DNA of 35,455 nucleotides. Origin: an uncultured Myxococcales bacterium. GTDB lineage: Bacteria > Myxococcota_A > UBA9042 > DTJE01. The translations under genes were made by a program, and so were the position numbers. Under the pieces are notes generated by a model. That model was not told the DNA's origin, did no database searches, and saw nothing but the letters and a program-made list of their open reading frames with translations. Position 1 is the first letter of the stretch. The number at the start of each line of letters is the position of its first letter. Below, piece by piece: positions 2 to 18,756 of this stretch. Location: positions 1 to 35,455 of the forward strand of contig CAINDP010000177.1 of assembly GCA_903847405.1 (NCBI GenBank), written 5' to 3'.

Positions 2-130
2 GCACTCGGCGGCCACCTGAAACACAATGGCGACCCAGGCTGGGAAGTCATTGAGAACGGCCTCGAACGGCTGCTTCTCATCGAAGAAGGCTGGCTCGCG
101 GCGACTGCTTCGAGAAGTGATCAATCGTGA
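2..130 (+). CDS. IS4-like transposase, C-terminal fragment (cut by window edge)
   Basis: The 42 codons from base 2 to a TGA at 128-130 read ALGGHLKHNGDPGW and then an amphipathic helix containing ENGLERLLLIEEGW. The Gly-Gly-aromatic/His-Leu start, the G-x-PGW turn and the helix ending in EGW match the extreme C-terminus of IS4-family DDE transposases, which typically have GGFLGRK, PG and a W-RG-W-RL helix. The rest of the gene lies left of the window, so I cannot tell whether the element is intact. The right end of the insertion should lie between 131 and about 240, but no clear terminal inverted repeat can be recognised without the left end. The frame differs from that of the next gene. The family call is made from motif memory and is fairly sure; activity is unknown. 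Confidence 0.65.
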   Translation, partial: ALGGHLKHNGDPGWEVIENGLERLLLIEEGWLAATASRSDQS

Positions 131-131
131 G

Positions 132-167
132 ACGTGCAGGTCCACGTGCAAGTCTACGTCCACGTCT
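132..167 (+). repeat. Three degenerate 12-bp direct repeats after the transposase
   Basis: Three consecutive 12-bp units, at 132-143, 144-155 and 156-167, begin ACGTGCAGGTCC, ACGTGCAAGTCT and ACGTCCACGTCT. Neighbouring units agree at 10 of 12 bases. The block begins two bases after the transposase stop and ends before the next gene. It could be part of the insertion-sequence end, a transposase-binding repeat, or host sequence at the insertion point. It is short, so chance cannot be excluded. Confidence 0.45.
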
Positions 168-245
168 GCGTGGGGGAGGGTGACCGGGAGGAGGCGGGAT
201 GGGGTACACTTGCCGGCGTCCCGGGGGGAGGTTGCGCGGTTGGCG

Positions 246-3200
246 ATGTCGAAAGGCGGCAGTCGGGTTCGGGTCCAGGCGTCGGTCGAACGGAAGCGCA
301 CGGGGGATGGCCCGCTGGTGGAAGCCACGCTGGGCCGGACCGTGGACGCCGAGGCCGGCGACGTCGCGGACGTGCTGGCGCCCCTGCGCCTGCCCGAGGT
401 TGCCCGGGTCCTGCTGCGCGACATCGACGCCCGGCTGATCAAGGGCGGCCAGGTCCGCCTGGCGGTCGCCCTGGCGGCGGGAACCCACTCGGTTCCCCTG
501 GCCGAGGGGCCCGGGTTCCAGATCGTCGTGGCGCCGAACACCCGGGCCGAGGTGCGGGCCGTCGTCGGCGACCCGCCCGGCGGCGCCTGGTCCGAGGGGC
601 CGGTGATCCAGTCCGTGTCCGTGGACCTGGCCCCGGCCATCGTGTTGCCGAACGTGCTGCAGACGCTGGTGGACCTGCGCCACCTGTTCGAGGACCGGAC
701 CTTCGAAACCGCCCGGAAGGCCTGGGACGGCCCCTTCGGCCGATCGCTGCGCAAGGCGGGAACCGCGGCCCTGCGCGCCACCGGGATCGCCGACGCCCTG
801 TGGGCCACCTTCGACAATGCCACCGGGCTGGCGCCCTTCCTGATGGAGCGGGCCCGTTCCCGCGTGGACTCCCTGGGGCGCGCATTCGCCGACGGCGCGC
901 TGGAGCCCGGCGAGGTCCACCTGTCGAAGATGCGCGGCCGGCCGCGGTGGAACGCCTCGGACTGCCGCTGGGAACTGGAACTGGCCTTCTCCGGCCAGGT
1001 TCGCCTGCTGGACAAGGTGACCTGGCCCTTCGAGAACGTGGTCCTGCCGTCGACCATCCTTCCGATCCCCTTCGCCTCACTGGACGGGCTGCTGTCGGGC
1101 GAACCCCTGGCGACCGGCCTGCTGCACGCCGAGCGCATGGATCGGCGCGCCGTGATGAAGGCGTTGTGGGGCGCCCTGGCATCGGCCGAAGGCGAGATCG
1201 AAGGGGAGGGCACCCCGCCCGTGCTGGGCCTCAAGACCATGCTGGTGGATCGGACCGACGTCGTGCTGCGGGGGGCGCTGCCCGAAACCTGCCGCATCCA
1301 GGCGTGCTTCGTGGCCCGACGCGAGGAGAATCGGCTGATCGTCGACGTGCCCGAGGCGATCGCCGGCTTCCCCGGGGGGGACGTCAAGGCCCGGTGCGCC
1401 CTGTCCCTGGACCTGGACTTCGACGCTCCCGGCGGCGGCCTGCCGGAGGTGCCCTCGGGCTCCCTGCGCGTGGACGCGATCCCCGGTTCGTCGCTGCCGT
1501 GGTTCGAAGGCCGTTCGCGGTCCTCCCATCCCCTGGCCCTGGGCTCGTCGGCCGTGCGGCTGCGCGTCGAGGACGTGCGTCCCACCGGCGGCATGGAAAT
1601 CGACTGGAGCAACGGCGGCGTCGAGGTCCACCTGCGGCCCGAGGGCATCGCCTTCGAGGCCCGCGTGTCGATGCCCCGGCAGGACGCGGTCCGCCTGGGG
1701 GACGCCGGCCTGGGCCTGGAACTGCGCGACGGCACCATCACGGCCCGCCTGAAACCCTTCCGCGACGGCCTGTGGCGCGCCTCGGTGCGCGGCGGGTGCG
1801 TGGTGGAACAGCGCGGGCGCCTGGACATCACGACCTTCCCCGAACTGCACATCGAGGATCCCGTGCTGCAGGAGGTCATCGAGGCGGCGGTCCGGTTCGA
1901 CCTGTCGTCGCGCATGCAGATTCCGCGTCCGGGCGCGCCCGAGTTCCGCATGACGCCCAAGGGACGGCTGGACGTCGTGCTGCGGAAGGCGGCCGTCACG
2001 CTGGACGGGCGGCACCTGGAACTGCCCGAGGGCACGACGCTGTCGGCCGCGTGGCGGGAAGGCGAAATCTCGTCCGAGGGCCTGGGCGCGTTCGCGGTGG
2101 ACCTGGGCTGGGACCTGCTGGACCGTCCGATCCGCGTGGCCGCCGACGACGGCCGGCAGGTGCTGCTGCGATCCGACCCGCTGATGCGGGGGGGGCTGAC
2201 CGTCCACGTCACCCCCGGCGGCCGCCTGGCGGTCAACACCGAGGGCGGATCCGGCATCGGCGCCGGCTGGATGACCACCCTGGTCGGCGGCGGCAGTTCG
2301 GGGTCCCTGAAGGAACTGCTGTGGTCCGGCGAGGCTCTGGACCTGCTGTCGCAGGTGCTGGAACTGTTCGACCCCGACCTGGCCCGCCTGGTCGTGAAGG
2401 CCCGGGATGCCGTCCGTTCGGGCCGCACCTACCTGGACGAGGAGGGCGTCAAGACCGTCGGCGACGCCATTCCCCGCCCCCGGATCGCCCGCCTGCTGTC
2501 GCGCGTGCTGTCCGGCGGGACGTCCTTCGCCCCCCGCCTGGAGCCCCTGGTGCAGGATGTCACCGAGGGGCGCGGGATCAGCCTGCGCAAGGCCAAGGCC
2601 TTGATCGCGGAGGCCATGCCGGACCTGGACGCCGACTACGAGGTGGACCGGATCCTGCGCTGGGTGGACCTGGTCACGCGCCCGGGGCCGCTGAATTCCC
2701 GAACGGCCCCCCGGGAGGAGCCTCCCATCGACATGGATCCCCGTTTCGCGGACGCGATCCGGGACCTGCCGTCCGCGGCGGACATCTACGCCGCTGCGGA
2801 CCGTGTGCGCACGCCCGAGGCGGTCCAGATCCGCATCACCGACCTGGCGCCCGAACTGACCCTGGCGCAACTGGACTGGATCCTGGCCCGGGCCCCCGGA
2901 CGGTGGGGGCCGTCCCGCATCCGGCGCCTGCGGCACGTCCGCGCGGCCAAGCGTGCCGTGGCGCGCATCGACGCGGAAGCGAGCCCCCTGGCGGCCGCGG
3001 CCCAGTCGGCGACCATCGCGGGGTTCCTGGGCGAAATCGTGGGGCCCCTGGCGGGCCTGGACGACCCGGCGTCGGGCTGGCCTTCGCCCTGCGCCCTGGG
3101 CCCGGTGGACGTGGCCGTCCTGCTGCAGGTCGGCCTGTCGGACCAGGCCCTGGGCCTGCAGTCCCAGGTGAACAACCGCCTGCTGCTGGAACTGGTGCGC

Positions 3201-4898
3201 GCGCGCCCCGGGGACTTCCTGCGGGCGGTCCTGATCGAAATGAGCCAGCAGGTGCCGCGCATCCTGGCCGGCGTCCTGATGGCGTTCCTGAACCAGGATC
3301 AGCAGCGCATGAAGGAGCCCCTGGACCTTCCCACGCTGGTCCAGGACAAACTGGGCCTGAAGGTGCCCCGACTGGCGGACTACATGGCCGGCGGCCGGCA
3401 CGTGCGGGACTCGTACTACGAGGCGCTGTCCCGCCTGGCCGACGCCATCATGGACCAGGCGGGACCGTACCTGGCCCGCCGGACCCACCTGCGGGAGGTC
3501 CACCACGGGGTGCCGTCGCCGCTGCGCATCCCGGCCGGTCTGCCCAAGACCCTGGAGGCGGACGCCCGGGCCGCCGTGGCCGCGGCCGACCGCCTGGGGC
3601 GGCGCCTGCGCTTCGACGGGCGGGACAAGGACGCCGCCCTGGACGACGCCCGCCGGGCCTACCGCGAATCGTTCGATGCCTGCGCCGCGTTCCTGGGCGA
3701 GGTGCCCACGGGCTTCCTGCGTCCCTGGATGCGGGACACCTGGCGCCGCAACGAGGAGGCCCTGAAGGTCCTGTCGGTGGTCGGCAACGTCCACGAGGAC
3801 GTGGACGACGTGCGGCACTGGCTGGAGGTGACGTCCGGCGCCGCGATCCCCACCGACGACGGGGCGCTGCTGGACCGGGTCATCGACACGCTTTACGCAT
3901 TCCCCGAGGACCGGGCCGTCCTGAAGGCCGATCCCCTGGTCCGCCTGATGATCGAACCGGCGCCGGGCCGCTATGACTTCACCGCGGTCAGCGCCATGGG
4001 CGTGGTCACCGACGGCGCCGAGGGCCGCGAACTGCACGCCGCATACGACCGCCTGCTGCAGCGCCGGGGCGTGCGCGTCGTGCGGGCGAACACCGGCCTG
4101 TTCCGCAGCCTGGAACACAACGCGTCGGCGATCCTGCGGTCGATCACGTCCGTCGAGGGGCCCTGGGGCTGGATCGGGTACTCCCAGGGGTGCGCCAACG
4201 GCCTGCTGGCCGAATCCTTCCTGCGGGGCGGCACCCCCGAGCAGCAGGGCATCCTGGACCGCTTCGTGGGCCGCAACCTGCTGTTTTCGGCGGCCAACGG
4301 CTCGGTCCACGGCACGGCGGGCACCGACAAGATGCTGCAGGCCATGATCGAAGGCGAGCGCTTCCTGAAGGCCTACCAGGCCCGGTACTCGCGGCAACTG
4401 GTGGACCTGTTCCTGCGCGCCCTGCAGGTCGTGCTGGATTCGCGGCAGTTCGTGGACACGCTGAACGGCGCCCACTCCCTGACCATCGAACGGGCCATCG
4501 CGCTGCACCGGGACGGCCAGTTCGTTCCCTGGGTGCCCACGTCCACAACGCGCGGCGTCGTGTCGCGCGACCGCCTGCCCGAGGCGCTGGAGTGGCTGTA
4601 CTTCATGCACGAGCACCAGAGCCCCGGCGTCCGCCACGACAGCCAGGTCCCCGTGGACGAGGCCCTGGGCCGCGCGACGCGGATCACCAACGAGCGGACG
4701 GTGGCCTTCGCCCGGTGCGACATCGGGTCCTTCGTCCAGTCCACGCACCACTGGTCGCCGCTGACGGTCGAAATCGAGGCCGTGACCACCGAACGCGACC
4801 GCGCCCTGGCCGTGTACGAAGGCCCGAAGGATCGCCACGTCTTCCCGTGGGTGGAAACGCTGGCGCGCTTCGGTCGGATTCGCAGGGTCGAAGGGTAG
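246..4898 (+). CDS. Large orphan protein with C-terminal alpha/beta-hydrolase-like region
   Basis: 1550 residues and not recognised as a known family. The open frame runs upstream to base 27, but that part overlaps the transposase end and has poor codon use. ATG 246 is therefore chosen, with G-rich sequence (GGGGGGAGG, 223-231) about 14 bases upstream, which is a long spacing. There is no signal peptide or obvious membrane span. Residues 1-750 look beta-rich, with many short alternating hydrophobic strands. Residues 750-1240 look helical. From about 1243 the sequence resembles an alpha/beta hydrolase: strands, then a nucleophile-elbow motif G-Y-S-Q-G with Ser1313, and a late His1531 (DRHVFP) that could complete the triad. 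The acid residue is not assigned. It ends 18 bases before the convergent gene at 4917-6122. The substrate is unknown; it may act on an intracellular ester, amide or lipid, but that is inference. Confidence 0.85.
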   Translation: MSKGGSRVRVQASVERKRTGDGPLVEATLGRTVDAEAGDVADVLAPLRLPEVARVLLRDIDARLIKGGQVRLAVALAAGTHSVPLAEGPGFQIVVAPNTRAEVRAVVGDPPGGAWSEGPVIQSVSVDLAPAIVLPNVLQTLVDLRHLFEDRTFETARKAWDGPFGRSLRKAGTAALRATGIADALWATFDNATGLAPFLMERARSRVDSLGRAFADGALEPGEVHLSKMRGRPRWNASDCRWELELAFSGQVRLLDKVTWPFENVVLPSTILPIPFASLDGLLSGEPLATGLLHAERMDRRAVMKALWGALASAEGEIEGEGTPPVLGLKTMLVDRTDVVLRGALPETCRIQACFVARREENRLIVDVPEAIAGFPGGDVKARCALSLDLDFDAPGGGLPEVPSGSLRVDAIPGSSLPWFEGRSRSSHPLALGSSAVRLRVEDVRPTGGMEIDWSNGGVEVHLRPEGIAFEARVSMPRQDAVRLGDAGLGLELRDGTITARLKPFRDGLWRASVRGGCVVEQRGRLDITTFPELHIEDPVLQEVIEAAVRFDLSSRMQIPRPGAPEFRMTPKGRLDVVLRKAAVTLDGRHLELPEGTTLSAAWREGEISSEGLGAFAVDLGWDLLDRPIRVAADDGRQVLLRSDPLMRGGLTVHVTPGGRLAVNTEGGSGIGAGWMTTLVGGGSSGSLKELLWSGEALDLLSQVLELFDPDLARLVVKARDAVRSGRTYLDEEGVKTVGDAIPRPRIARLLSRVLSGGTSFAPRLEPLVQDVTEGRGISLRKAKALIAEAMPDLDADYEVDRILRWVDLVTRPGPLNSRTAPREEPPIDMDPRFADAIRDLPSAADIYAAADRVRTPEAVQIRITDLAPELTLAQLDWILARAPGRWGPSRIRRLRHVRAAKRAVARIDAEASPLAAAAQSATIAGFLGEIVGPLAGLDDPASGWPSPCALGPVDVAVLLQVGLSDQALGLQSQVNNRLLLELVRARPGDFLRAVLIEMSQQVPRILAGVLMAFLNQDQQRMKEPLDLPTLVQDKLGLKVPRLADYMAGGRHVRDSYYEALSRLADAIMDQAGPYLARRTHLREVHHGVPSPLRIPAGLPKTLEADARAAVAAADRLGRRLRFDGRDKDAALDDARRAYRESFDACAAFLGEVPTGFLRPWMRDTWRRNEEALKVLSVVGNVHEDVDDVRHWLEVTSGAAIPTDDGALLDRVIDTLYAFPEDRAVLKADPLVRLMIEPAPGRYDFTAVSAMGVVTDGAEGRELHAAYDRLLQRRGVRVVRANTGLFRSLEHNASAILRSITSVEGPWGWIGYSQGCANGLLAESFLRGGTPEQQGILDRFVGRNLLFSAANGSVHGTAGTDKMLQAMIEGERFLKAYQARYSRQLVDLFLRALQVVLDSRQFVDTLNGAHSLTIERAIALHRDGQFVPWVPTSTTRGVVSRDRLPEALEWLYFMHEHQSPGVRHDSQVPVDEALGRATRITNERTVAFARCDIGSFVQSTHHWSPLTVEIEAVTTERDRALAVYEGPKDRHVFPWVETLARFGRIRRVEG

Positions 4899-7834: not shown

Positions 7835-9070
7835 ATGCGCCGCCTCGTGCACGTCGTGCTGATCCTGGCCCTCGGGCTGCCCGCCGGAACCGCCGTCGCC
7901 CAGGCCCCTTCGGAAGAGGAAAAGGCGTCGCAGTCCCTGTACAAGAAGGGGAAGACGAAGTTCGACGCGGGGGACTGGATCGCCGCCGAGGACCTGTTCA
8001 CGAAGTCCCTGGCCGTGTTCGCGAACCCCTATGCGCGGCTGTACCGGGCCGCCAGCCTGGCGCACCTGGCCCGCTGCGACGAATCCCGCGGCGAACTGGC
8101 GCGCTTTTCGCCCGACCAGGTGGCCGCGAAGGCCCGGGACAAGGCCCGGATGATGGTCGATCAGGTGAAGGCGATGTGCGCGCCCGCGCCAGCGCCGGCG
8201 AAAGCGGTGGCGCCCGCGGTGGTCGAGGCCCCGGTGGCGCAGGTTCCCACGAATGTCCCCCCCGCGACCGCTGCCGTCGAGCCGTCCGCTGCCGTGGTGG
8301 TCGAACCGCCGCCCCCGGTCCCCGAAAGGGGGAAGGGCAGGGCCGGCGGCGGCAAAGGTCCACTCCTGGTGTCCCCCGACGGCACCGGGGACTTCGTCCG
8401 CCTGGAAGACGCCGTGGCCAAGGCGAAACCCGGCGCGCTGATCCGCCTGGCCCCGGGTTTGCACCGTCTGTCGAAGCCCCTGGACATCACCACCGCGGTC
8501 CGGATCGTTGGGGACGGGAAGTCCGCGGTCATCGTCGGCGACGGCGAGGGACACGTGCTGCGTTTCGTCGGCAAGGGTCCCTTCGAGCTGCACGACCTGT
8601 CCGTCGAGCACCAGGGCGGTCGCTGGGCCCGCGTGATCGTCGTCGAGGACGGCGACGTGGACTTCCGGGGCATCCGCGTTTCGGGCGGCGTGCGCGACGC
8701 GGCGGCCCGGCGGGGGGGCGAAGGCCTGCTGCTGCTGGGCAACGCCGCCGGGACGATCACCGGCAGCGAGTTCACCGGCAACGCGCTGCACGGCGTGAAG
8801 CTGGCCGGCCGGGCCCATCCCCTGCTGGACGGCAACGGCGCCCGGTCGAACGGCAAGGGCGGCATCGTCTGGTTCGAGGACGCGTCCGGCACGGCCCGCG
8901 CAAACACCTGCACGGCCAACGGCCAGTACGGCATGGCGGTCGTGGATCGGGCCGCCCCGAAACTGGTCGCGAACGTCTGCGTGGACAACCTGCGCGGCGG
9001 GCTGTACCTGGAATCCGGGCGCCTCGACGGCCTGGAAGACAACCGGTGCCCGATGTACCATCCCAAGTGA
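7835..9070 (+). CDS. Exported right-handed beta-helix protein
   Basis: 411 residues. ATG 7835 has GGGAGG six bases upstream. An N-terminal signal peptide (basic MRR, hydrophobic VVLILALGLPAG, probable cleavage after AVA near residue 22) directs it across the inner membrane. Residues 25-110 are helical with a TPR-like pattern (LYKKGKTKFDAGDWIAAEDLF). Residues 112-175 are a Pro/Ala/Val-rich linker. From about residue 185 on, repeated short units rich in Gly, Asn and Val (for example GSEFTGNALHGVKL and NTCTANGQYGMAVV) match the parallel beta-helix of pectate-lyase/NosD-like proteins. No catalytic residues can be assigned. A role in binding or processing envelope polysaccharide is possible but not shown. 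Confidence 0.85.
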   Translation: MRRLVHVVLILALGLPAGTAVAQAPSEEEKASQSLYKKGKTKFDAGDWIAAEDLFTKSLAVFANPYARLYRAASLAHLARCDESRGELARFSPDQVAAKARDKARMMVDQVKAMCAPAPAPAKAVAPAVVEAPVAQVPTNVPPATAAVEPSAAVVVEPPPPVPERGKGRAGGGKGPLLVSPDGTGDFVRLEDAVAKAKPGALIRLAPGLHRLSKPLDITTAVRIVGDGKSAVIVGDGEGHVLRFVGKGPFELHDLSVEHQGGRWARVIVVEDGDVDFRGIRVSGGVRDAAARRGGEGLLLLGNAAGTITGSEFTGNALHGVKLAGRAHPLLDGNGARSNGKGGIVWFEDASGTARANTCTANGQYGMAVVDRAAPKLVANVCVDNLRGGLYLESGRLDGLEDNRCPMYHPK

Positions 9071-9593
9071 CTGCCGTGGGTCACCGCCCGGAACGATGGC
9101 GACCTCGAACGAATCGCCCGATGACAACCGCTGACATTCCCCGAAAACCCTGAGGGGCCCGGCGGTGGGGCCGGCTCCGCGACAGGCGCCCCCCCGCCCA
9201 CCGGAGTGGCTCGGGGCCTCCACCGGGGCCGAAGCTACCGCGCCGCTGTCGGGCCGTGCTGCTGTCGACCGGTCGGCAAGCCCTGGGGGCCCGCATCGGC
9301 GCGGCTTCACGCTTCGGCCCCGGTTCCGTGCCCTCGAGCCAACTTCCGGTGGGAGCCAGGTTGCTCCGCCGGCCCCCCCGCCGGACCCACGGGACTCCCC
9401 TGAAGTGGCGCAGCACAAAGCGTCAGGATGGGTCTTGTCGAGGGAGAAGCGGCCTGGGCGGAGTGCTTCCGACCCAGGCGGTGGGTTACGTGAAATCTGA
9501 GGGCGTCCCCTCCACCCGCGTCGGGCATACCCCGCCTTGCCGGTGTCCCGTCGGATACCCATCCCTCGGAAACGGACCTGGGGGAGACATTCC
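9071..9593 (+). other. Gene-poor stretch of about 520 bases
   Basis: Open frames exist in several phases, as expected at this base composition, but none has a convincing start, ribosome site or recognisable product, and codon third positions are not biased as in neighbouring genes. It is not recognisably tRNA, tmRNA, RNase P or SRP RNA. It contains a good hairpin at 9452-9479 and weaker ones near 9157-9173 and 9352-9367. It may hold a non-coding RNA, a decayed gene, or only regulatory sequence for the hydrolase at 9594. Confidence 0.5.
9452..9479 (+). other. Strong hairpin in the gene-poor stretch
   Basis: GCCTGGG (9452-9458) pairs perfectly with CCCAGGC (9473-9479). CGG (9459-9461) pairs with CCG (9469-9471), leaving a single bulged A at 9472 and a 7-base loop. 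There is no T-run after it, so it is not a standard terminator. Confidence 0.5.
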
Positions 9594-10376
9594 ATGAGAA
9601 CCCTGAACATCGCCGCGGGCGTCGCGATCCTGCTGGCCACCGTCGCGGCCGACGCGCGCATCCGGACGGAAGCCCGCGAATACAAGGACGGGAATACGGT
9701 GTTGGAAGGTGTGCTGGCCTATGACGACGCACAATCCGGACGGCGGCCCGGGATCGTGGTCGTCCACGACTGGAGCGGCCTGGGCCCCGACGTGAAGGGG
9801 CGCATCGAAATGCTGGCGAAACTGGGCTATGTGGCGTTCGCCGCCGACATCTACGGGAAGGGTGTGGTCCCGAAAAATGCGGGGGAATCGGCGAAACTGG
9901 CAGGGGAATTCAAGGCCGACCGGCCGATGCTGCGTCGGCGCGCACAGGCGGCGCTGGATGTCCTGCTGGCCGACCCGCACGTGGACCCGAAACGCGTCGC
10001 GGCGATGGGCTACTGCTTCGGCGGCGGCACCGCGCTGGAACTGGCTCGCAGCGGCGCACCTCTGCGGGCGGTTGTCAGCTTCCACGGGTTCCTGGACACG
10101 CCGGATCCGGCCGACGCCAAGGCAATCCGGGCGAAGGTCCTGGTGCTGCACGGCGCCGACGACCCGTTCGTCCCGCCGGCGCAGGTGGCCGCCTTCGAGG
10201 ACGAAATGCGCAAGGCGGCCGTGGACTGGCAACTGGTGAAGTACGGCGGGGCGGTCCACGCCTTCACGATCCAGGGCGCCGGTTCCGATCCGTCCAAGGG
10301 GGTGGCGTACAACCCCGAAGCGGATCGGCGATCGTGGGAGGAAATGAAGACGTTCCTGGCGGCGACGCTGAAGTGA
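9594..10376 (+). CDS. Exported dienelactone-hydrolase-family protein
   Basis: 260 residues. ATG 9594 is supported by GGGGGAG eight to ten bases before it; the frame continues upstream without a better start. The first 21 residues look like a signal peptide (MRTLNIAAGVAILLATVAADA), so the enzyme is probably periplasmic or secreted. The core is an alpha/beta hydrolase of the dienelactone hydrolase family: PGIVVVHDWSGLG early on, the nucleophile Cys141 in GYCFGG, the acid Asp190 in HGADDPF and His222 in AVHAFT. The Cys nucleophile and spacing are those of true DLH-family members, which hydrolyse lactones or esters. The natural substrate cannot be read from the sequence. No aromatic-degradation genes are nearby, so a role in chlorocatechol breakdown is unlikely. 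The stop is followed in the same phase by a propeller-gene remnant. Confidence 0.92.
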   Translation: MRTLNIAAGVAILLATVAADARIRTEAREYKDGNTVLEGVLAYDDAQSGRRPGIVVVHDWSGLGPDVKGRIEMLAKLGYVAFAADIYGKGVVPKNAGESAKLAGEFKADRPMLRRRAQAALDVLLADPHVDPKRVAAMGYCFGGGTALELARSGAPLRAVVSFHGFLDTPDPADAKAIRAKVLVLHGADDPFVPPAQVAAFEDEMRKAAVDWQLVKYGGAVHAFTIQGAGSDPSKGVAYNPEADRRSWEEMKTFLAATLK

Positions 10377-10634
10377 GATTCTTTCGGGCTGGACGTCGTC
10401 GATGCCCGAACGATGGAAACGGTGAAAACGGTGCGCGACTCGTGGTCGGGGCACTACAGCGTGGTGGTCGAAGGCAACGGCAATCGCCTGGTCAGCATCA
10501 ACCACTGGGTCGATGCGCCGGAAATCCAGGTCTACGACGGGGATCTGGAACTGCTGCGGACACTCCCTCTGTCGATGGTCAGCCGGGCGGTCGGCGCCGA
10601 TTTCCGCCGGAACGTCGTGGCGGGCGGGGAGCAG
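10377..10634 (+). pseudogene. Remnant of a YVTN-type beta-propeller gene
   Basis: Directly after the hydrolase stop, and in the same phase, the sequence reads GLDVVDARTMETVKTV, then SGHYSVVVEGNGNRLVSINH and EIQVYDGDLELLRTLPL. That is the pattern of YVTN/WD-like propeller repeats (V-x-D-x-x-T-x-x-V ... V-x-V-x-x-x-G-x-R-L ... I-x-V-Y-D). Third codon positions look coding. The longest in-frame ATG is 10413 and the frame stays open to 10691, but the last 20 codons run through the promoter at 10635-10663. With barely one blade left and no ribosome site, I read it as a decayed or truncated gene. It could be a small 92-residue gene instead. Confidence 0.4.
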
Positions 10635-10663
10635 TTGACGGCGCGATGCGCGACTCCTACTCT
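10635..10663 (+). promoter_or_regulatory. Promoter of the first Cys-rich lipoprotein gene
   Basis: TTGACG (10635-10640), a 17-bp spacer and TACTCT (10658-10663), followed by an ATG 27 bases downstream. The first 14 bases, TTGACGGCGCGATG, are identical to those of the promoter at 11342-11370, and CTCCTA is shared at the end of the spacer and the start of the -10 box. Conservation beyond the two boxes suggests duplication or co-regulation. Confidence 0.6.
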
Positions 10664-10690
10664 TGACGCCGCCTCCGGCATTGGAAACTG

Positions 10691-11323
10691 ATGAAGCGCT
10701 GGCTGGGTTGGATCGCGGTCGCGGGGGCATCGTGCCTGGCCCTGGCGTGCGGCGACCCGGGCAACGAGGACGGGACCGGCCTGCAGCGCGTGGCTTCCGC
10801 CATCGTCGCGGACGCTCCGACGTGCGGCGCGTGTTCCGATACCGACTACTGCATGTTCGGCCAATGCACGGCCTGGCTGGGCTTCTATGGCGGCTGTACC
10901 GAGGTGGGAAAGTCCTGCTACTACGACGACAAGGGACTCTGCGTCGGGGCTGACGAGGGGCCGTCGGGCCCGCTGTGCCTCCCCCGGTGCGTCGTCAGTC
11001 TTGGCTACCAGGATTGCGGGCCTGCGAAGAACGGGATCACGCAGGCCTGCTTCTACTTTTCCGACGTGTGCCAGCCGAACCCCACCATGCTGTGCGTGGC
11101 CCCGGCGCCGGTTCCGAAAAAGGAGGGCCAGGTCTGCCGCGGGCAGGACTGCGGGCCGCACCTGCAGTGCGTCAGCCTGATCTCCAGGTGGACCACGGAA
11201 TGCCGGTATTTCTGCCTCAGCGACGACGACTGCGCCTGGAAGAAGCCGGGCTCCACGTGCCTCCCGGCGATCTGCCCCAAGGGGACGCCCGGGACGCAGG
11301 GTTTCGGCTTCTGCGGTCCGTGA
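10691..11323 (+). CDS. Cys-rich small lipoprotein, paralogue of 13714-14340
   Basis: 210 residues. The N-terminus (MKRWLGWIAVAGASCLALAC, then GDPG) is a lipoprotein-like signal with lipidation predicted at Cys20, although the lipobox is not ideal. The rest is cysteine-rich with recurring short spacings (CGAC, DTDYC, GQC, DDDC), probably disulphide-bonded outside the cytoplasm. No enzymatic motif is seen and I do not recognise a named family. Well over half of its residues match the gene at 13714, including the block TGLQRVASA, the segment NGIT-x-x-CF-x-FS and the TECRYFC-x-SD-x-DCAW block near the end. The two paralogues bracket a larger Cys-rich lipoprotein, which points to a shared envelope structure or surface complex. 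It has its own promoter; the ribosome site is weak (TTGGAA). Confidence 0.85.
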   Translation: MKRWLGWIAVAGASCLALACGDPGNEDGTGLQRVASAIVADAPTCGACSDTDYCMFGQCTAWLGFYGGCTEVGKSCYYDDKGLCVGADEGPSGPLCLPRCVVSLGYQDCGPAKNGITQACFYFSDVCQPNPTMLCVAPAPVPKKEGQVCRGQDCGPHLQCVSLISRWTTECRYFCLSDDDCAWKKPGSTCLPAICPKGTPGTQGFGFCGP

Positions 11324-11341
11324 ACGGGGGGCAGATCGTCA

Positions 11342-11370
11342 TTGACGGCGCGATGTCCGGCTCCTATCCT
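11342..11370 (+). promoter_or_regulatory. Promoter of the FGE-domain lipoprotein gene
   Basis: TTGACG (11342-11347), a 17-bp spacer and TATCCT (11365-11370). It lies in the 79-base gap between the two lipoprotein genes and is nearly a copy of the promoter at 10635-10663. Confidence 0.6.
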
Positions 11371-11402
11371 GCCTCCTGTCTGCACTGACCGCGGAGACCC
11401 AG

Positions 11403-13670
11403 ATGACGACCGTCCACCCGGTGCATCCCCGCCGGCGGTATTCGCGCGTCGCAATACGGGGAATCCTCGGCGGTGCAGTGTTGCTGGCGCTGGTGACCGG
11501 ATGCGGTTCGGGCGGGGCGCCCAGGATGGTCACGGACGAAACGCCCTGGGACGCGAGCCTGCTGGACGTCGCCGGGCTGGATGCGCATCCGGATGTCCTG
11601 GAACGCCCCGACGTCGCCGGGGATGACGTGCCGGACAACGGCGACGCCTTGTCGGAATTGCCGGATCCCGGTCCCCAGGACGCCTGCCAGCCTTCCTGCA
11701 TCGGCCGCGTGTGTGGCGACGACGGGTGCGGCGGGACGTGCGGGACGTGCACGGACGGGAAGGCGTGCCAGGCGGGGCAGTGCGTCTGCGTGGGCAACGA
11801 CCACAAGGCGTGTTGCGGGGCCGCGGTGTGCTGGATCGACAGTTGCGGGGCCACCGGGGACACGGTTGCCGACTGCACGTTCGGCTGCAAGGACGGGGCG
11901 TGCCAGGCGTGCGTGCCCCAGTGCCAGGGGAAACTGTGCGGCGCGGACGGGTGCGGGGGCGAGTGCGGGGTGTGCGCGCCGGGTGCCTGTGACGGCATGG
12001 TGTGGACGCCCGCCGGTACCTGCCTGGACGGCGCGTGCCAGTTGGGCGGCGGCGCATTCTGCGACGACGGCGAACAGTGTACAACCGATACCTGCGACCC
12101 GGTTTCGGGGTGCGCCCATTTCCCCCGCAACGGGGCCTGCGATGACGGCGTTCCGTGTACGGTGGACGACGCCTGCGGGGCATTGGGGTGCGAGGGCGCG
12201 CCGCTGAACTGCGACGACGGCAAGGTGTGCACGGCCGACGGGTGCGACGCGACGACGGGCGCATGCCGGCACACAGCGGTCCCGACCTGCACGCCGGGCG
12301 CCTGTGCGGTGGACGGGAACTGCGACGACAACGACCTCTGCACGCGCGACAAGTGCGTGGCCGGGAACTGCCGGAACGCGGTCATCGTGTGCGACGACCT
12401 GAACCCGTGTACGACGGACTTCTGTACCCGGGGGCCCGGGTATCCATACTGCACGTACCTGGCGGTCCCGAAGGGCACGGCCTGCGACGACGGCAACGTC
12501 TGCACCACGGCAGACGTTTGCGCGGCCAAGGCCTGCGGCGGCGCCCCGGCGGCGTGCGACGACGGCCTGGCTTGCACGGACGACGCCTGCGCGCCGGCGA
12601 CCGGGTGCAGCCACGTGCTGCGGGGCGGAACGTGCCTGATCGACGGTGCCTGCCTGGCCGACGGGCAGCCGGACCCCTTGCAGGCGTGCCGGGTCTGTGC
12701 GCCCGCGACGGACACGGGTGCCTGGACCATCCTTCCCGACTGGACGGTCTGCGGCGACGGGGCCTACTGCCGGTCGGGCCAGTGCGAACAGACGTGCCCG
12801 GTCGGGTACGTCCACATCCCCGCGGGGGCGTTCACGATGGGGTCCCCGGAAACCGAACCGGGGCGCAGCGACGACGAAACGCAGCACGAGGTGACGATTT
12901 CGACGCCGTACTGCCTGAAGGCGACCGAGGTGACGGTCGGGGAGTGGAAGTCGCGGATGGGCAGCGACCCGTATGCCTCCGCTTGCGGCGACGCATGCCC
13001 GGTGCAGGACGTGTCGTTCTGGGACGCGGTGGCCTACTGCAACTTCCTGTCGATCCAGGAGAGCCTGTTGCCCTGCTACCAGATGAAGGGGTGCTCGGGG
13101 ACGCCGGGTGCGGGAAGCCTGCTGTGCCAGGACGCGACGCCGACGGGGCCGACGTGCGCGGGGTACCGTCTGCCGTCCGAGGCGGAGTGGGAGTACGCGG
13201 CCCGTGCCGGGACCACGACTGCGACCTACAACGGGACCAGCGAAACGACGGCCTGCGAGGCGCCGAACCCGGTGCTGGACCCGGTGACGTGGTTCTGCGG
13301 GAACGCGATGACGAACCACCCGGTGAAGGGGAAATTGCCGAACGCCTGGGGCCTGTACGACATGCTGGGGAACGCCTGGGAGTGGACCGGGGACTGGTAC
13401 GGGGCCTACCCGGCGGGACCCGTGACGGATCCGAAGGGACCGGCGACCGGCACGCTACGGGTGGAGCGGGGCGGCGGGTGGGTCGCATCGGGCGCCCGGT
13501 GGAATCGGGCGGCATTCCGCAATCGCAGTTGCTGCATCCCGTGGTTGCGCGCAGAACCGCTGGGCTTCCGGCCGGTGCGGGTGACGTGCGGCGGCATCGC
13601 CTGCCCGACCGTGCCGGGCTACACGGCGTCGTGCAGCGCACAGCAGGTCTGCGGGTATGCGTTGCGATGA
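11403..13670 (+). CDS. Cys-rich lipoprotein with CDDG repeats and FGE-sulfatase-like domain
   Basis: 755 residues. ATG 11403 has GGAGA six bases upstream. A basic N-terminus and hydrophobic stretch end in VTGC, giving lipidation at Cys34. A low-complexity Asp/Pro linker follows. Residues about 93-215 hold two C-G-x-DGCGG-x-CG-x-C units. Residues 220 to about 400 hold seven repeats of the form CDD-x-x-x-CT-x-D-x-C. From about 467 (YVHIPAGAFTMGSPE) to about 740 there is a formylglycine-generating-enzyme/SUMF1-like domain, with RLPSEAEWEYAARAG, LYDMLGNAWEWTGDWY and GGGWVASGARWNRAAFRN. The cysteine pair that binds copper in true FGE near the last motif is not in its usual place, so a non-catalytic, carbohydrate- or ligand-binding role is more likely than sulfatase maturation. 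It lies between two paralogous small lipoproteins, 43 bases before the second. Confidence 0.92.
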   Translation: MTTVHPVHPRRRYSRVAIRGILGGAVLLALVTGCGSGGAPRMVTDETPWDASLLDVAGLDAHPDVLERPDVAGDDVPDNGDALSELPDPGPQDACQPSCIGRVCGDDGCGGTCGTCTDGKACQAGQCVCVGNDHKACCGAAVCWIDSCGATGDTVADCTFGCKDGACQACVPQCQGKLCGADGCGGECGVCAPGACDGMVWTPAGTCLDGACQLGGGAFCDDGEQCTTDTCDPVSGCAHFPRNGACDDGVPCTVDDACGALGCEGAPLNCDDGKVCTADGCDATTGACRHTAVPTCTPGACAVDGNCDDNDLCTRDKCVAGNCRNAVIVCDDLNPCTTDFCTRGPGYPYCTYLAVPKGTACDDGNVCTTADVCAAKACGGAPAACDDGLACTDDACAPATGCSHVLRGGTCLIDGACLADGQPDPLQACRVCAPATDTGAWTILPDWTVCGDGAYCRSGQCEQTCPVGYVHIPAGAFTMGSPETEPGRSDDETQHEVTISTPYCLKATEVTVGEWKSRMGSDPYASACGDACPVQDVSFWDAVAYCNFLSIQESLLPCYQMKGCSGTPGAGSLLCQDATPTGPTCAGYRLPSEAEWEYAARAGTTTATYNGTSETTACEAPNPVLDPVTWFCGNAMTNHPVKGKLPNAWGLYDMLGNAWEWTGDWYGAYPAGPVTDPKGPATGTLRVERGGGWVASGARWNRAAFRNRSCCIPWLRAEPLGFRPVRVTCGGIACPTVPGYTASCSAQQVCGYALR

Positions 13671-13713
13671 TCGAAGCGCCCGTGGGTGACGCGGCGACAG
13701 GGGTGGGGGACCG

Positions 13714-14340
13714 ATGAACGGCACGTCCGCGTGGTGGATCGTGTTCGCGGCGGCTTCGGGCATGGTCGTGGGCTGTGGCGACCCGGGCGGGGAGGGCGGG
13801 ACCGGCCTGCAGCGGGTGGCGTCTGCCGTCGTCGAGGGCGCTCCCGAGTGTGGCTCCTGTGCCGACACCGACTACTGCTTTTCCGGGCAGTGCACGGAAT
13901 GGCTGGGCTTCCTGGGCGCGTGTACCGGGCACAAGGAACCCTGCTACGGCGGAAAGGGGCTGTGCGTCGACCATCCAACGTCGCCTTCGGGGCCCCTGTG
14001 CCATCCCACGTGCGTCGTCACCGTGGCCAACGACGATTGCGGGCCTCCGAAGAACGGGATCACGGAAACCTGCTTCTTCTTTTCCCAGGAATGCGGCGAA
14101 CCGCCTGTGATGCTGTGCGTGCGCCCGCAGGCTGTCACGAAAGCGGAAGGGCAGGTGTGCATCGATGGCCCCGACAGCCCGCACGATTGCGCCCCGGGCC
14201 TGCATTGTGTGAGGCTGGTCAGTCCGTATCTTACCGCGGAGTGCCGGTATTTCTGCCGCAGCGACGCCGATTGCGCCTGGCAGAAGCCGGGATCCAAGTG
14301 CGCGCTCTGCAGTTCGGGCAACGGGTTCTGCCGCCCGTAG
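13714..14340 (+). CDS. Cys-rich small lipoprotein, paralogue of 10691-11323
   Basis: 208 residues. ATG 13714 follows GGGGGA by a few bases. The N-terminus ends in VVGC, a good lipobox, with Cys21 lipidated. The mature part opens GDPGGEGGTGLQRVASA, almost the same as its paralogue, and keeps most of its cysteines (CGSC, DTDYC, GQC, DC and the final AECRYFC block). It differs by an insertion near residue 150 (DGPDSPHDC) and a shorter end. It sits 43 bases after the FGE-domain gene with no clear promoter, so those two are probably one transcript. The function is not known; location at the outer membrane or cell surface is inferred from the lipobox. Confidence 0.85.
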   Translation: MNGTSAWWIVFAAASGMVVGCGDPGGEGGTGLQRVASAVVEGAPECGSCADTDYCFSGQCTEWLGFLGACTGHKEPCYGGKGLCVDHPTSPSGPLCHPTCVVTVANDDCGPPKNGITETCFFFSQECGEPPVMLCVRPQAVTKAEGQVCIDGPDSPHDCAPGLHCVRLVSPYLTAECRYFCRSDADCAWQKPGSKCALCSSGNGFCRP

Positions 14341-14426
14341 GGCGTCCCTCGCAGCCAGGCGTCTTCCAGAGCGAATTCCCGGGACAGCGAGGCGCGCGTC
14401 GGAGCGATCAAGAACGAAGCGAACGC

Positions 14427-16217
14427 CTACAGGTCCCACCCGTCGCCGCCGCCGGACGCCTTCTTCGACAGTTTGACCGAGCGCGCCGGGGTCGCCAGAA
14501 CCTCGTCGTACGCCAGGGCCAGGTCCGTGGATTTGTAGCCCGGGGCCGTGATGCGGACGCGGAGCGTGGTTCCGGGAGGTACGTCGATGTCCAGGGGCAG
14601 GCGTCCCAGGAGGGCGCCGTCGGGCAGGCGCGCGACCTTGGCGCCGTCCGGGGTTCCCGACAGGCGGGCCTTGGCGGGGGCGGGGGCCGGGGCGGCCGGT
14701 GCAACCGCCGGAGGGGCAGGGGGGGACGGCGTCGCAGCGGGTGTCGCCGGGGGTGTCGCGGGCATGGTCGCCGGTGCCGGGGCAGCCTGCGCCGGGGCAA
14801 CCGGTGCCGTCCCCTTCGCAGCTTCCGCCGATGTCGGCACCGCTGCGGGAACGGGAACCTCGCTGGTGGACGTCGCCTGCGACATCAGCCATCCGGCGCC
14901 CAGCGCGATCACCACGACCCCGATTGCGCCCGCCACAACCACCGGAACCCACCGCGACCGCCGGCCGCCCGGCGCCGGCCCCAGGTCCAGGGACGGCGTC
15001 GGCACCGGCGTCAGGACCGTCCGTGTTTCCTGGGCCGCGGTCCCCTGGGACCGCGGGCCCTCGCCGTGCAGCGGCGGCGCACCAAGGAACGTCGCACCCT
15101 GCCGGGACGGACCGTTCAAACCCTCGGCCACCGCCGCGTTCATGGGCGTCGTCGGCGTGGGCTCGGGCCGTCCCAGGAAGGGCGTTGAATCGCTGCGCGG
15201 CGGGGTGGGATGCTCGGCCCCCAGCGTCAGCGTCGCCTGGGTTTCCCGGGGCGTGGGCACGGTCGATCGCAGCACCGCGATGCGGTCCAGCAGCGCGGAC
15301 GCGTCGTGCGGGCGGTCGTCGGCCACCTTGGCCAGCAACTGGTGGACCAACGCCTCGAAGTCGGGCGGGATGCCGCCGCCGCACACGTCCGACAGGCGGG
15401 GCGGCGGCTCGCTGATGTGCTTCAGCATCAGGTGCATGGGCGTGCTGGATTCGAAGGGCGGGATACCGGCGGCCATCTCGAACATCATGACGCCCAGGGA
15501 GTACAGGTCCGAACGCCCGTCCACGCGCTCGCCTCGGGCCTGCTCGGGGCTCATGTAGGCCGGGGTCCCGATGGCCAGGCCGGTCCGGGTCAGGCTTTCG
15601 CCGGCCAGCGTCCGGGCGACGCCGAAGTCCAGCACCTTCACGAAGTCCGGGTGCCCGATCATGGTCATCAGGAAGATGTTTTCCGGCTTGACGTCCCGGT
15701 GGACGATGCCCTTTTCGTGGGCCTCCCCCAGGGATCGGGCGATCTGCTCGGCGATGCGCAGCACGCGCGACGGGTCCATGCGGCCGACGCGGCGTACCTC
15801 GGCCCGCAGGGTTCTGCCCTCCAGGTACTCCATCGCCAGGAACAACTGGCCGTCCTCGGACTGCCCGAAGTCGAACACCCGGATGGTGTTGGGGTGCGCC
15901 AGGCGGCTGGCCGCACGGGCCTCGCGGTAGAAGCGTTCGATGGAATCGAGGTCGGTGGACGCCTCGCGGCGCAGCACCTTCAGGGCCACCTGGGAATCCA
16001 TCGCGATGTGGCGGGCCCGGTAGACCGCGCCCATGCCGCCCCGGCCCAGCAGTTCGACGATTTCGTAGCGATCGACGAAGACCTTGCCCAGGAGGTCGTG
16101 CCCCGACAGGGCGGCTTCGTCCACGGTGGTGATGCGGCAGGTCGGGCAGACCCGTTCCGGGGTCCGCCCCTTGCACTCCGGACAGATCCGCATCGCCGCG
16201 CTATTGGGGGGATTCAT
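14427..16217 (-). CDS. Membrane Ser/Thr protein kinase with zinc ribbon and PEGA-like tail
   Basis: 596 residues. Residues 12-27 form a zinc-ribbon-like knuckle (CPEC ... CPTC). The Hanks-type kinase domain covers about 51-315: GRGGMGAVY P-loop at 58-66, catalytic Lys80, HRDVKPEN with Asp175, DFG at 197-199, then GTPAYMSPEQ. All catalytic residues are present, so it should be active. A Pro/Thr-rich juxtamembrane region follows, with one membrane span at about 423-446, a long Ala/Pro linker, and a PEGA-like domain at about 515-585 (GTPDGAKV, PLDIDVPPGTTLRVRITAPGY) outside the cytoplasm. The substrates are unknown; the divergent 813-residue protein is a candidate partner from position only. No Shine-Dalgarno sequence precedes ATG 16217, and a -10 box lies just upstream (see 16225-16230). 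ATG at 16193 (codon 9) is an alternative start. Confidence 0.95.
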   Translation of the reverse strand: MNPPNSAAMRICPECKGRTPERVCPTCRITTVDEAALSGHDLLGKVFVDRYEIVELLGRGGMGAVYRARHIAMDSQVALKVLRREASTDLDSIERFYREARAASRLAHPNTIRVFDFGQSEDGQLFLAMEYLEGRTLRAEVRRVGRMDPSRVLRIAEQIARSLGEAHEKGIVHRDVKPENIFLMTMIGHPDFVKVLDFGVARTLAGESLTRTGLAIGTPAYMSPEQARGERVDGRSDLYSLGVMMFEMAAGIPPFESSTPMHLMLKHISEPPPRLSDVCGGGIPPDFEALVHQLLAKVADDRPHDASALLDRIAVLRSTVPTPRETQATLTLGAEHPTPPRSDSTPFLGRPEPTPTTPMNAAVAEGLNGPSRQGATFLGAPPLHGEGPRSQGTAAQETRTVLTPVPTPSLDLGPAPGGRRSRWVPVVVAGAIGVVVIALGAGWLMSQATSTSEVPVPAAVPTSAEAAKGTAPVAPAQAAPAPATMPATPPATPAATPSPPAPPAVAPAAPAPAPAKARLSGTPDGAKVARLPDGALLGRLPLDIDVPPGTTLRVRITAPGYKSTDLALAYDEVLATPARSVKLSKKASGGGDGWDL

Positions 16218-16224
16218 GGCGTGG

Positions 16225-16230
16225 ATTCTA
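16225..16230 (-). promoter_or_regulatory. Extended -10 box for the kinase gene, implying a leaderless mRNA
   Basis: On the minus strand the sequence is TGC followed by TAGAAT, an extended -10 element, with only seven bases between it and the kinase ATG at 16217. Transcription normally starts six to eight bases after the -10 box, so the message would begin at or next to the ATG. No good -35 box is seen at the right distance. Confidence 0.45.
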
Positions 16231-16249
16231 GCACAGAGCGGTTCGTCGC

Positions 16250-16278
16250 TGGACCGTCTGGGCCTTACCGGCTATTCT
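16250..16278 (+). promoter_or_regulatory. Promoter of the tail-anchored protein gene
   Basis: TGGACC (16250-16255), a 17-bp spacer and TATTCT (16273-16278). It diverges from the kinase promoter; the two -10 boxes are about 43 bases apart, so their polymerase footprints overlap. An in-frame GTG at 16285 sits six bases after the -10 box. Confidence 0.4.
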
Positions 16279-16314
16279 CCTCCCGTGACCCCCCCGCCGT
16301 TTCACGGGATCGAC

Positions 16315-18756
16315 ATGGGCGACAGGCCGTTGCGATATCCAGGTGCCTCCCTGCTGGCCGAAGTGGTCGCGGCGACGCAGTCCCTGGAGGCCGGGCCGAC
16401 GCCCGAGGACCTGGTCCGCTGGACCGGCCGCCTGCAGGAAGCGTCCGAGCGGGGGCTGTCCTTCGAGGGGTGGAAGGAGGCCGCGCGGACCTTCTTCCTG
16501 CTGCTGCAGGACGCCATCGACCGCGAGGGGCGTCCGCTGGACCTCCCCGAATCGCTGGTGTCGCCCGCCCTGGATGCGGCCACGCGCATCTGGCTGCCCC
16601 TGGTCCCGCTGCTGCCCGCCGACGATCGGGTCCAGGCGTGGAACCTGCTGGACCTGCTGCACGCGAACCGCGTCCACCGGCACTTCCTGGAAGCGGCGTT
16701 CCAGGCGGCCGAGGCCTTCGTGCGCGCGGCGCCGCTGCCGGCGGTGCAGTCCGCCCTGCAACTGGTCCGGCGCACGCTGGAAATGGGTCCCCGCGACGAG
16801 CGCCTGCCGCCCCTGCTGGACCTGCTGGACCGGTGGTGCGGCAGCGAGGCCGACCTGGCCTTCGTCCACGAGGTGCGGTCGGGCCTGGAGGTGCGGTACC
16901 TCGACGCGGCCTCGCGCACGATGGGGATGCACCTGGACGACCTGCGGGGGCTGTGGGCCCTGCACGAGGAAATCACCGAGGTCCTGGGGGGCGAACTGGT
17001 CGCGCGGGAGGCGCCGGCCGGGTCCTCGAGGGCCGTGGGCGAATCCCGGGAGGCCGCCCGGGTGCTGACGGCGCGGGCGGTGGCGGTCCAGGGCCAGTTG
17101 CTGTCCCGGGACACCTTCGTGGACGACTGGATCGAGTTCGAGATGGCGCGCATCGAGGCCGGGACCGGGGAGTACCAGACGGCCATCCGCATCCTGGAAC
17201 GCCTGGTCGAGCGGGGGGTCTTCCCGCTGGAAGCCGCGCAGTTGCGGGCGCGTCTGGCCCTGATGAAGCGCTATCCCGAGGACGCGCGGTCCGTGATCGA
17301 GCGCGCGGCCGCGGTGCTGCCCCTGGTGCGCCGCGACGACGCGCTGCAGGAACCCATACGCGCCGTGTACCGGGAAGCCGGTGGCGCGCCCGATGCGCTG
17401 GGGCTGGCCGAGCCGTCCCAGTCCTTCGTCGATCGGGCCCAGGCCAACCGCGACGACCTGGCGGCACGGGCGCTGGTGGGGATGGAGGCCGAGGCCGAGC
17501 GGGCGTTCTGGGAGGCCCGTCGGGCGCGCCTGGATGCCTTGCTGGGCGGACTGCTGGAAGGGGCGGACTTCGACGCGGCCCTGGGGGAGGGCGCCGGGGG
17601 CCGTGACGTGCGCTTCCCGGTCGGCGACGCGGCGGGATGCGCGCTGGACGACATGCCGGGGCTGCCGGAGGGCCTGCGCCAGGTCCTGCTGGAGGCCGTG
17701 GCCGCGCCCGTGCCCGCCCGGCGCGTGGCGGTCGAGTTCCTGCCGTGGTTCGACGCCCGGGAGGCGGAAGGACGTTCGTTCGACGACCTGGTTCGATCCT
17801 TCCCGGGAATGGGCCAGTCGGTCGCCGTCGCGCGCCGACGGCTGGACGCGGCCATCCAGGGCGGGAATCCCGGCGCGGTCGTGGCGCTGCTGGACCACTA
17901 CGAGTCGCTGCCCGGCGTGCCGGACCGCCTGCTGCTGGAGGCCTGGGAGCGGACCCGCGAAACGGTCGGCGCCGGGCCGCGATGGCTGGAAAACGTCCGC
18001 CGGGGCCGGCGGATCTGGATGCGCCTGCGGGGCGAGCCCGGCCGGCGCTGCGGGGACCTGGTTCGCCAGGACGCCCTGAACCGCCTGGAGGACGAGTCGG
18101 CCCGGGGCGCCTGGGAAGAACTGTGCGCCGCCGTGCTGGACACGATGCCCGACGACGACACCCGGGAACGCCTGTGGACCTGGTTCCAGTCGCGGTTCCA
18201 GGCGCGCACGCCCACCGACGCCATGCTGCGCCTGGGGGCGCTGCTGGTGCGCCGGATCGGGCCGCCCTTCGAGGCGCACGTCCGGGCCATGGTCCGGGAC
18301 GCGGTGATCCCCGAGGTCGGCGCGCTGGTCCGCACCGATCGTCCGGAGGAAAACCGGGAAACCATCGAACGCCTGCTGGACGTGTCCGGGGGCGACCCCG
18401 CGGTCCAGAACGCCGTGGTGGAGTGGTTCCTGGGAGGGCGCGCCGACGGGGATGGCGGACCGGGTGCCCAGGCCGACCTGGGGGAATGGCTGGCCTCCCG
18501 CCTGCAGGGCGATGCGGCCGAGCGTGTGCGGCGCAAGACGGGCCAGTTCCTGGTGTCGATGCTGCAGGCGTCCCCGGACTCCGGCCGGCAGGTGGCCATC
18601 ATGGAGCGCCTGAACACCCTGCAGCCCGGGGACCCGGAACTGGCGCGGATGCTGCGGGACGCCCGCACGACCGCCGCGTCGTACCGACGCATCGCGGTCT
18701 ACATCGGGCTGGGGGCGCTGGTGTCCGTGGCCCTGTTGTGGCTGCTGTTGAAGTAG
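16315..18756 (+). CDS. Large helical protein with C-terminal membrane anchor
   Basis: 813 residues from ATG 16315; not recognised. There is no signal peptide. The sequence is almost wholly helical with paired amphipathic helices, suggestive of TPR or other helical repeats (for example YQTAIRILERLVERG and VQSALQLVRRTLEMG), but no clear repeat period is evident by eye. The only hydrophobic span is the last 24 residues (RIAVYIGLGALVSVALLWLLLK), so it is probably tail-anchored with its bulk in the cytoplasm. Neither start has a strong ribosome site: ATG 16315 has only GGGAT, and an in-frame GTG at 16285 lies six bases from the -10 box and would be leaderless. It is divergent from a Ser/Thr kinase, which suggests a scaffold or substrate role; that is inference only. 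Confidence 0.85.
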   Translation: MGDRPLRYPGASLLAEVVAATQSLEAGPTPEDLVRWTGRLQEASERGLSFEGWKEAARTFFLLLQDAIDREGRPLDLPESLVSPALDAATRIWLPLVPLLPADDRVQAWNLLDLLHANRVHRHFLEAAFQAAEAFVRAAPLPAVQSALQLVRRTLEMGPRDERLPPLLDLLDRWCGSEADLAFVHEVRSGLEVRYLDAASRTMGMHLDDLRGLWALHEEITEVLGGELVAREAPAGSSRAVGESREAARVLTARAVAVQGQLLSRDTFVDDWIEFEMARIEAGTGEYQTAIRILERLVERGVFPLEAAQLRARLALMKRYPEDARSVIERAAAVLPLVRRDDALQEPIRAVYREAGGAPDALGLAEPSQSFVDRAQANRDDLAARALVGMEAEAERAFWEARRARLDALLGGLLEGADFDAALGEGAGGRDVRFPVGDAAGCALDDMPGLPEGLRQVLLEAVAAPVPARRVAVEFLPWFDAREAEGRSFDDLVRSFPGMGQSVAVARRRLDAAIQGGNPGAVVALLDHYESLPGVPDRLLLEAWERTRETVGAGPRWLENVRRGRRIWMRLRGEPGRRCGDLVRQDALNRLEDESARGAWEELCAAVLDTMPDDDTRERLWTWFQSRFQARTPTDAMLRLGALLVRRIGPPFEAHVRAMVRDAVIPEVGALVRTDRPEENRETIERLLDVSGGDPAVQNAVVEWFLGGRADGDGGPGAQADLGEWLASRLQGDAAERVRRKTGQFLVSMLQASPDSGRQVAIMERLNTLQPGDPELARMLRDARTTAASYRRIAVYIGLGALVSVALLWLLLK

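Follow-up and report, generated by a model that had tools for sequence, protein, structure and literature searches.

The closest described precedent for the locus reported here is the TvpA class of Treponema denticola proteins, targets of diversity-generating retroelements (DGRs) that carry an FGE-type head and lipoprotein signals and occur as several paralogous targets per genome (PMC4891356). There are T. denticola isolates in which such target genes have been left behind without reverse transcriptase or template (PMC4891356). The present locus lies in a stretch of 35,455 nucleotides from an uncultured Myxococcales bacterium (the window; contig CAINDP010000177.1 of assembly GCA_903847405.1, our contig C177), which belongs to a 5.65-Mb assembly of 273 contigs that is 96.7% complete. 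Three head-to-tail open reading frames (ORFs), A, B and C, have the coordinates (Table 1) given in an earlier prediction made without database searches (the original prediction). We put at about 0.7 the probability that B is an orphan surface receptor of the DGR target class, whose reverse transcriptase and template have been lost, and that C is its co-expressed partner.

B shares with the T. denticola targets the head type, the lipoprotein signal, the presence of paralogues and the occurrence in a genome without reverse transcriptase or template, but neither a CDD-repeat stalk nor a cysteine-rich partner is among the features we found described for them, and the orphan loops of T. denticola differ mostly at template adenines, which those of B do not (PMC4891356). 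From Thermus aquaticus TaqVP and other solved variable proteins B differs by its stalk, its lipoprotein signal and the 29 residues that follow the loop as a tail (PMC6328139). The kin-recognition receptor TraA of myxobacteria also presents a variable lectin-like head on a stalk of cysteine-rich tandem repeats, which its authors compared with Pfam00526, but TraA has an N-terminal PA14 head and a MYXO-CTERM anchor whereas B has a C-terminal FGE head and an N-terminal lipid anchor (PMC3325183); no Pfam or NCBIfam match to a PA14 domain or MYXO-CTERM tag was obtained for B. Several variable repeats may lie within one ORF, tandem FGE paralogues included (PMC6642488, PMC3521204), and an ORF of three tandem FGE paralogues resembles proteins of the congener G002 in having several FGE units with variable loops, but B is a single, truncated unit (PMC3521204). 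Targets are possibly diversified in trans, and there may be several DGRs per genome (PMC10907252). In a limited search of the open-access literature we recognised no description of a cysteine-rich lipoprotein as the partner of a DGR target, or of one protein served by two different DGRs. As far as these sources go, the nearest precedent is the T. denticola targets left after DGR loss; the stalk, the tandem arrays and the cysteine-rich partner are new.

The description of B in the original prediction, as a lipoprotein with two C-G-DGCGG units, seven repeats and an FGE-like domain, was borne out: the C-G-x-D-G-C-G-G units lie at 11712-11735 and 11937-11960, the seven CDD units comprise, in strict sequence, five CDDG, one CDDN and one CDDL (Dicty_CTDC, 42.7 bits against a Pfam cut-off of 27), and Pfam FGE-sulfatase (PF03781) covers residues 469-726 with an E-value of 5.8e-43. 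The D-H-K-A-C-C/W-x-D-S-C-G module of B is present also in a DGR target of G002. The same holds for the claim that two paralogous small Cys-rich lipoproteins flank B, as A and C align over 210 columns with 57% identity (E 9e-67) and both have signals with Cys; chance is ruled out as the source of these features of A, B and C. The best match of the B head in the PDB is T. denticola variable protein 1, both by sequence (4.5e-28) and by Foldseek (4.6e-19), and the model of the head superposes on this protein with Z 31.7 and 2.2 A over 242 residues (VIA-align 2). From Pfam and the model, B possesses a DGR-type scaffold (C-type lectin, FGE subtype). Its place in PF03781 and a fold resembling FGE and PvdO would also suit a formylglycine-generating or related oxidative enzyme (FGE, EgtB or PvdO type), but the positions aligned with Cys336 and Cys341 of human FGE are Ala and Trp, the loop bearing these positions is the hypervariable loop, and B has a cell-surface stalk. 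With the catalytic Cys absent an enzymatic role was rejected, and we regard it as extremely unlikely; the label 'sulfatase-modifying' on B-like genes is misleading.

The assignment of B to the DGR targets is carried by kinship and architecture and not by an adenine footprint. The B head is 58-61% identical to five heads of G002, one of which has a linked DGR, and since the last 29 residues of B match the linker between head 1 and head 2 (of two subtypes) in G002, B looks like the first head of a two-headed protein, cut behind the linker. Reverse transcriptases were found in 10 of the 13 genomes of the family, that of B not being one of these, and in three they adjoin a B-type head (G002:C5, G008:C162 and G009:C11, where G, C and L denote genome, contig and locus). 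At G002:C5 the target gene is followed by two accessory ORFs, the reverse transcriptase and then the template, and a 131-bp stretch at the 3' end of the target has 19 mismatches to the template, 17 of them at template adenines (p 8e-11); the corresponding counts are 13/15 at G008:C162 and 17/18 at G009:C11. Seven adenine-biased template/variable pairs were obtained (three in G002, two in G009 and one each in G003 and G008) from a scan of the loci under study in which a repeat pair was retained only if A or T of one copy accounted for 85% or more of the mismatches, a filter that itself selects for such a bias. The reverse transcriptases and repeat pairs beside the heads are DGRs. Short A-biased pairs (83 and 74 bp) were also returned by the scan within L069.

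The head-versus-template comparison covered 37 heads. At linked DGR targets only 1-2 of about 100 non-adenine sites differ from the template, and other G002 heads show the same adenine bias with more non-adenine changes, which is what one would expect of targets that are remote or decaying. On C28 and C79 of G002, proteins combine heads of two subtypes in one reading frame, the first-subtype loops matching the C5 template (p 4e-07 to 1e-09) and the second-subtype loops the C2 template (p 5e-03 to 1e-14). These frames, at L057 (G002:C28, 6172-12087) and L059 (G002:C79, 6953 upward), are 1972 and at least 3016 aa long and hold two to four FGE heads. The 3.1-Mb genome G003 has 31 B-type heads, often in tandem rows (on C36, C62, C155, C76, C90 and others; L062-L065, L079-L082), and one detected reverse transcriptase; in most of its heads, many non-adenine sites deviate from the genome's own template.

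In the genome of B itself there were no hits to RVT_1, the G002 DGR reverse transcriptase used as query gave a best E-value of 0.48, and the search for a template repeat gave nothing better than E 0.009 over 34 nt, so no variable repeat could be matched to a template of its own genome. B could still be a live target served in trans if reverse transcriptase and template had been missed by assembly or binning: this is a fragmented genome in which contigs of the array break off at repeats, and G002 has three template/variable pairs with reverse transcriptases and remote heads that still match the templates. However, apart from the missing reverse transcriptase and template, between 34 and 43 of the 95 non-adenine sites in the loop paralogues depart from the G002 template, far above the figure for linked targets, which makes this very improbable. 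A different history, in which B descends from ordinary FGE-type binding lipoproteins that were never DGR targets and the G002 lineage recruited DGRs later, we consider rather unlikely. It would fit the unspecific nature of the adenine footprint and the fact that heads without a linked reverse transcriptase are common (in the wider comparison, only 4 loci among the best 80 of 493 relatives hold one), but the clade to which B belongs has DGR-linked heads scattered across it, and the tail of B corresponds to the linker of two-headed proteins whose loops match G002 templates. The nearest head relatives among the best 80 of 493 include an Eisenbacteria, a deltaproteobacterial and an uncultured Myxococcales metagenome-assembled genome.

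The loop is the most divergent part of the head between the B paralogues on contigs C13 and C145 of the same genome, with nonsynonymous differences in 27/44 loop codons against 30/299 elsewhere (p 2e-13), and relative to the G002 template these fall at 16/18 template-adenine codons and 7/24 others. For B of the window, template-adenine sites are changed at 25/31 positions in the loop against 58/134 adenines upstream (p 1.4e-4), and other sites at 34/95 in the loop against 157/517 upstream (p 0.18), but in the C13 and C145 loops the non-adenine sites are raised too (p 0.021 and 0.025). Several points speak against an orphan DGR target with partner C. The loop interval was picked after the divergence had been seen, and the differences between loop paralogues extend to third positions and to sites other than adenines, which is not what fresh DGR copies show. 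A similar adenine footprint against a G002 template is seen in FGE proteins from other subfamilies encoded by this genome (C122, 21/31 versus 24/95; C200, 24/30 versus 27/87, with similar loop counts in a second comparison); these are the codons at which FGE heads have their exposed loops, and the footprint is therefore no proof of past retrohoming. The grouping of B with the G002 heads is weakly supported (81/57) in a tree that left out heads matching fewer than 200 profile positions, and with 273 contigs and 96.7% completeness a reverse transcriptase could be missing from the assembly. Finally, the role of C is drawn from adjacency alone, and the predicted structure of A/C is poor (predicted local distance difference test (pLDDT) score 41.5).

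A and C have no Pfam family; NCBIfam gave nothing for A and two sub-threshold matches only for C, and none of 11 stretches was confirmed as a named relative of C. The signal peptides of A, B and C end in Cys (...LALAC, ...LVTGC and ...VVGC, respectively), and the strict lipobox pattern is matched by B and C but not by A, which presumably agrees with the less strict lipoprotein pattern of PROSITE. Four full members of the C family are present in this genome: A and C themselves and two more, located close to the starts of C13 and C145 respectively, each of which immediately follows the FGE half of a B paralogue. As a B-type gene stands directly 5' of a C-type gene at 3/3 assembled junctions, the recurring unit in this genome is the B-C pair and not A-B-C. 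C145 continues into the stalk half of another B, and C169 also terminates in a stalk half. The two ends (C145 and C169) share 141 bp, as do the two starts (C145 and C13), and ends and starts overlap by exactly 87 bp, which indicates that the assembly was broken inside a tandem array B-C-B-C. The partner proteins of the array are twice as long, being made up of a C-type module, another module that has diverged from it (E 1e-07 between the two) and a tail, and two reading frames of this genome (1155 and 2446 aa) contain the C-type module in tandem. The C13 copy of C (L005, 1113-2333) has a single in-frame TAG, which could be decay or an assembly error; its relatives in the window and on C145 are intact.

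With the pair recurring at every assembled junction, a partnership of B and C is plausible, and A would most simply be what remains of a second B-C copy, namely its C, the B having been lost after the duplication. Between the C13 and C145 partners module 1 has nonsynonymous differences in 67/221 codons and the rest in 12/185; set beside the loop (27/44), this is the ground for suggesting a two-part recognition system, with B and C as its cognate halves, where recombination in the tandem array replaced DGR mutagenesis. We think such a system distinctly improbable, and it is just as doubtful that head loop and partner module co-vary from pair to pair while the remainder is kept alike.

The original prediction had taken the bracketed arrangement as a hint of an undescribed surface complex. 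In partial support there is the B-C pairing (3/3 in this genome), but A and C are missing from relatives that have B: a single-sequence search with C found no A/C homologue in 12/12 other family genomes, whereas 10/12 contain homologues of the B head (E 1e-20 or better) and have the family of B without A or C. A three-row A/C profile gave weak matches only, in 6/376 other genomes of the phylum, the best (6.9e-11) being to one module in a 930-aa protein. The 930-aa frame at G002:C15 (L019, 445-3234) combines a CGSDGCGG unit, a C-type module and a protease-like region with HEFQH, which Pfam Peptidase_M30 matches below cut-off. Nor is the expected co-location kept in relatives. At the syntenic site of G002 the beta-helix gene and the kinase are 55 bp apart as against 5.4 kb in the window, where the insert consists of a dienelactone-hydrolase gene, a small ORF and the A-B-C trio, and the congener G001 has a different repeat-rich cysteine protein beside the kinase. 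On these grounds (no A/C in 12/12, B without A/C in 10/12, the empty G002 slot) the conserved triad was rejected, and the trio is a local gene duplication. Close spacing, lipoprotein signals common to all three and recurrence of the B-C pair would be compatible with a three-part surface complex of A, B and C, but B-type genes occur elsewhere without A/C, the trio lies in an insert and the same leader repeat 5' of A and B points to duplication, making such a complex highly unlikely. The repeat is 25 nt long and 88% identical between the two copies, so that each gene has its own leader; its exact 14-mer core occurs genome-wide only 5' of A and 5' of B, and the copy upstream of B is the sole sigma-70-like site found in the region.

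If B is an orphan DGR target, it would be a lipid-anchored receptor with an FGE-type C-type-lectin head on a disulfide-rich stalk, binding its ligand via the loop region 13446-13580, the equivalent of which is rewritten by a DGR in relatives. Its ancestor may have been a two-headed DGR target like those of G002, from which the B lineage would have lost the second head and the DGR. The loop, once rewritten by a DGR or derived from a lineage where this was so, would now be fixed, and the receptor would change solely by duplication and ordinary (point) mutation. C would be a co-expressed, surface-anchored cysteine-rich partner, a single copy of a module that may also be strung together in long surface proteins. 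By analogy, B is likely to act in cell-cell or cell-prey/phage contact, in the recognition of neighbours, prey or phage. The locus bears on the fate of hypermutating receptors once the mutator has gone: they may live on as lipoproteins that are fixed and duplicated and have a new partner peculiar to the lineage. As DGR targets in all three states, live, decayed and orphan, occur together in the family, along with proteins whose two to four heads match two templates, the gain, freezing and loss of heads could be traced directly.

Table 1. Features of the A-B-C locus and its borders (window coordinates).
Feature	Coordinates	Strand	Evidence or remark
Beta-helix gene, left border of insert	7835-9070		
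Insert relative to congener G002	9071..14426	.	tblastn and blastn synteny
Dienelactone-hydrolase family gene within insert; probably unrelated passenger	9537..10376	+	Pfam DLH 8.6e-47
Promoter-like/leader repeat 5' of A	10635..10659	+	88% identity to copy 5' of B
Gene A, small cysteine-rich lipoprotein, single C-type module, 210 aa	10691..11323	+	
Sigma-70-like promoter 5' of B, TTGACG-17-TATCCT; copy of repeat 5' of A	11342..11370	+	1 found vs 0.1 expected
Gene B, lipoprotein with acidic linker, cysteine-rich stalk and FGE-type C-type-lectin head, 755 aa	11403..13670	+	
B, two C-G-x-D-G-C-G-G units with D-H-K-A-C-C/W-x-D-S-C-G module between	11712..11960	+	
B stalk, seven CDD (Dicty_CTDC-like) repeats	12060..12575	+	Pfam PF00526; DNA repeats
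B, FGE-type head; catalytic Cys positions Ala and Trp	12807..13580	+	model pLDDT 90.8; top matches 2y3c
B, segment equivalent to DGR variable repeat, 45 codons; hypervariable between paralogues	13446..13580	+	
B tail, match to G002 linker joining FGE head 1 to head 2; putative relic of truncation	13581..13667	+	
Gene C, paralogue of A, 208 aa; probably co-transcribed with B	13714..14340	+	43 bp behind B
Ser/Thr kinase, convergent, conserved backbone gene, right border of insert	14427..16217	-	Pfam Pkinase 1.4e-47; orthologues

Outside the insert, two large backbone genes (27-4898 and 16084-18756; 1623 and 890 aa) are conserved in congeners and have no Pfam match at E 0.001. Perhaps by chance, Ser/Thr kinases related to that of the window lie within about 5 kb of FGE targets at G002:C5 and G002:C28 (L056 and L057), as the kinase does in the window.

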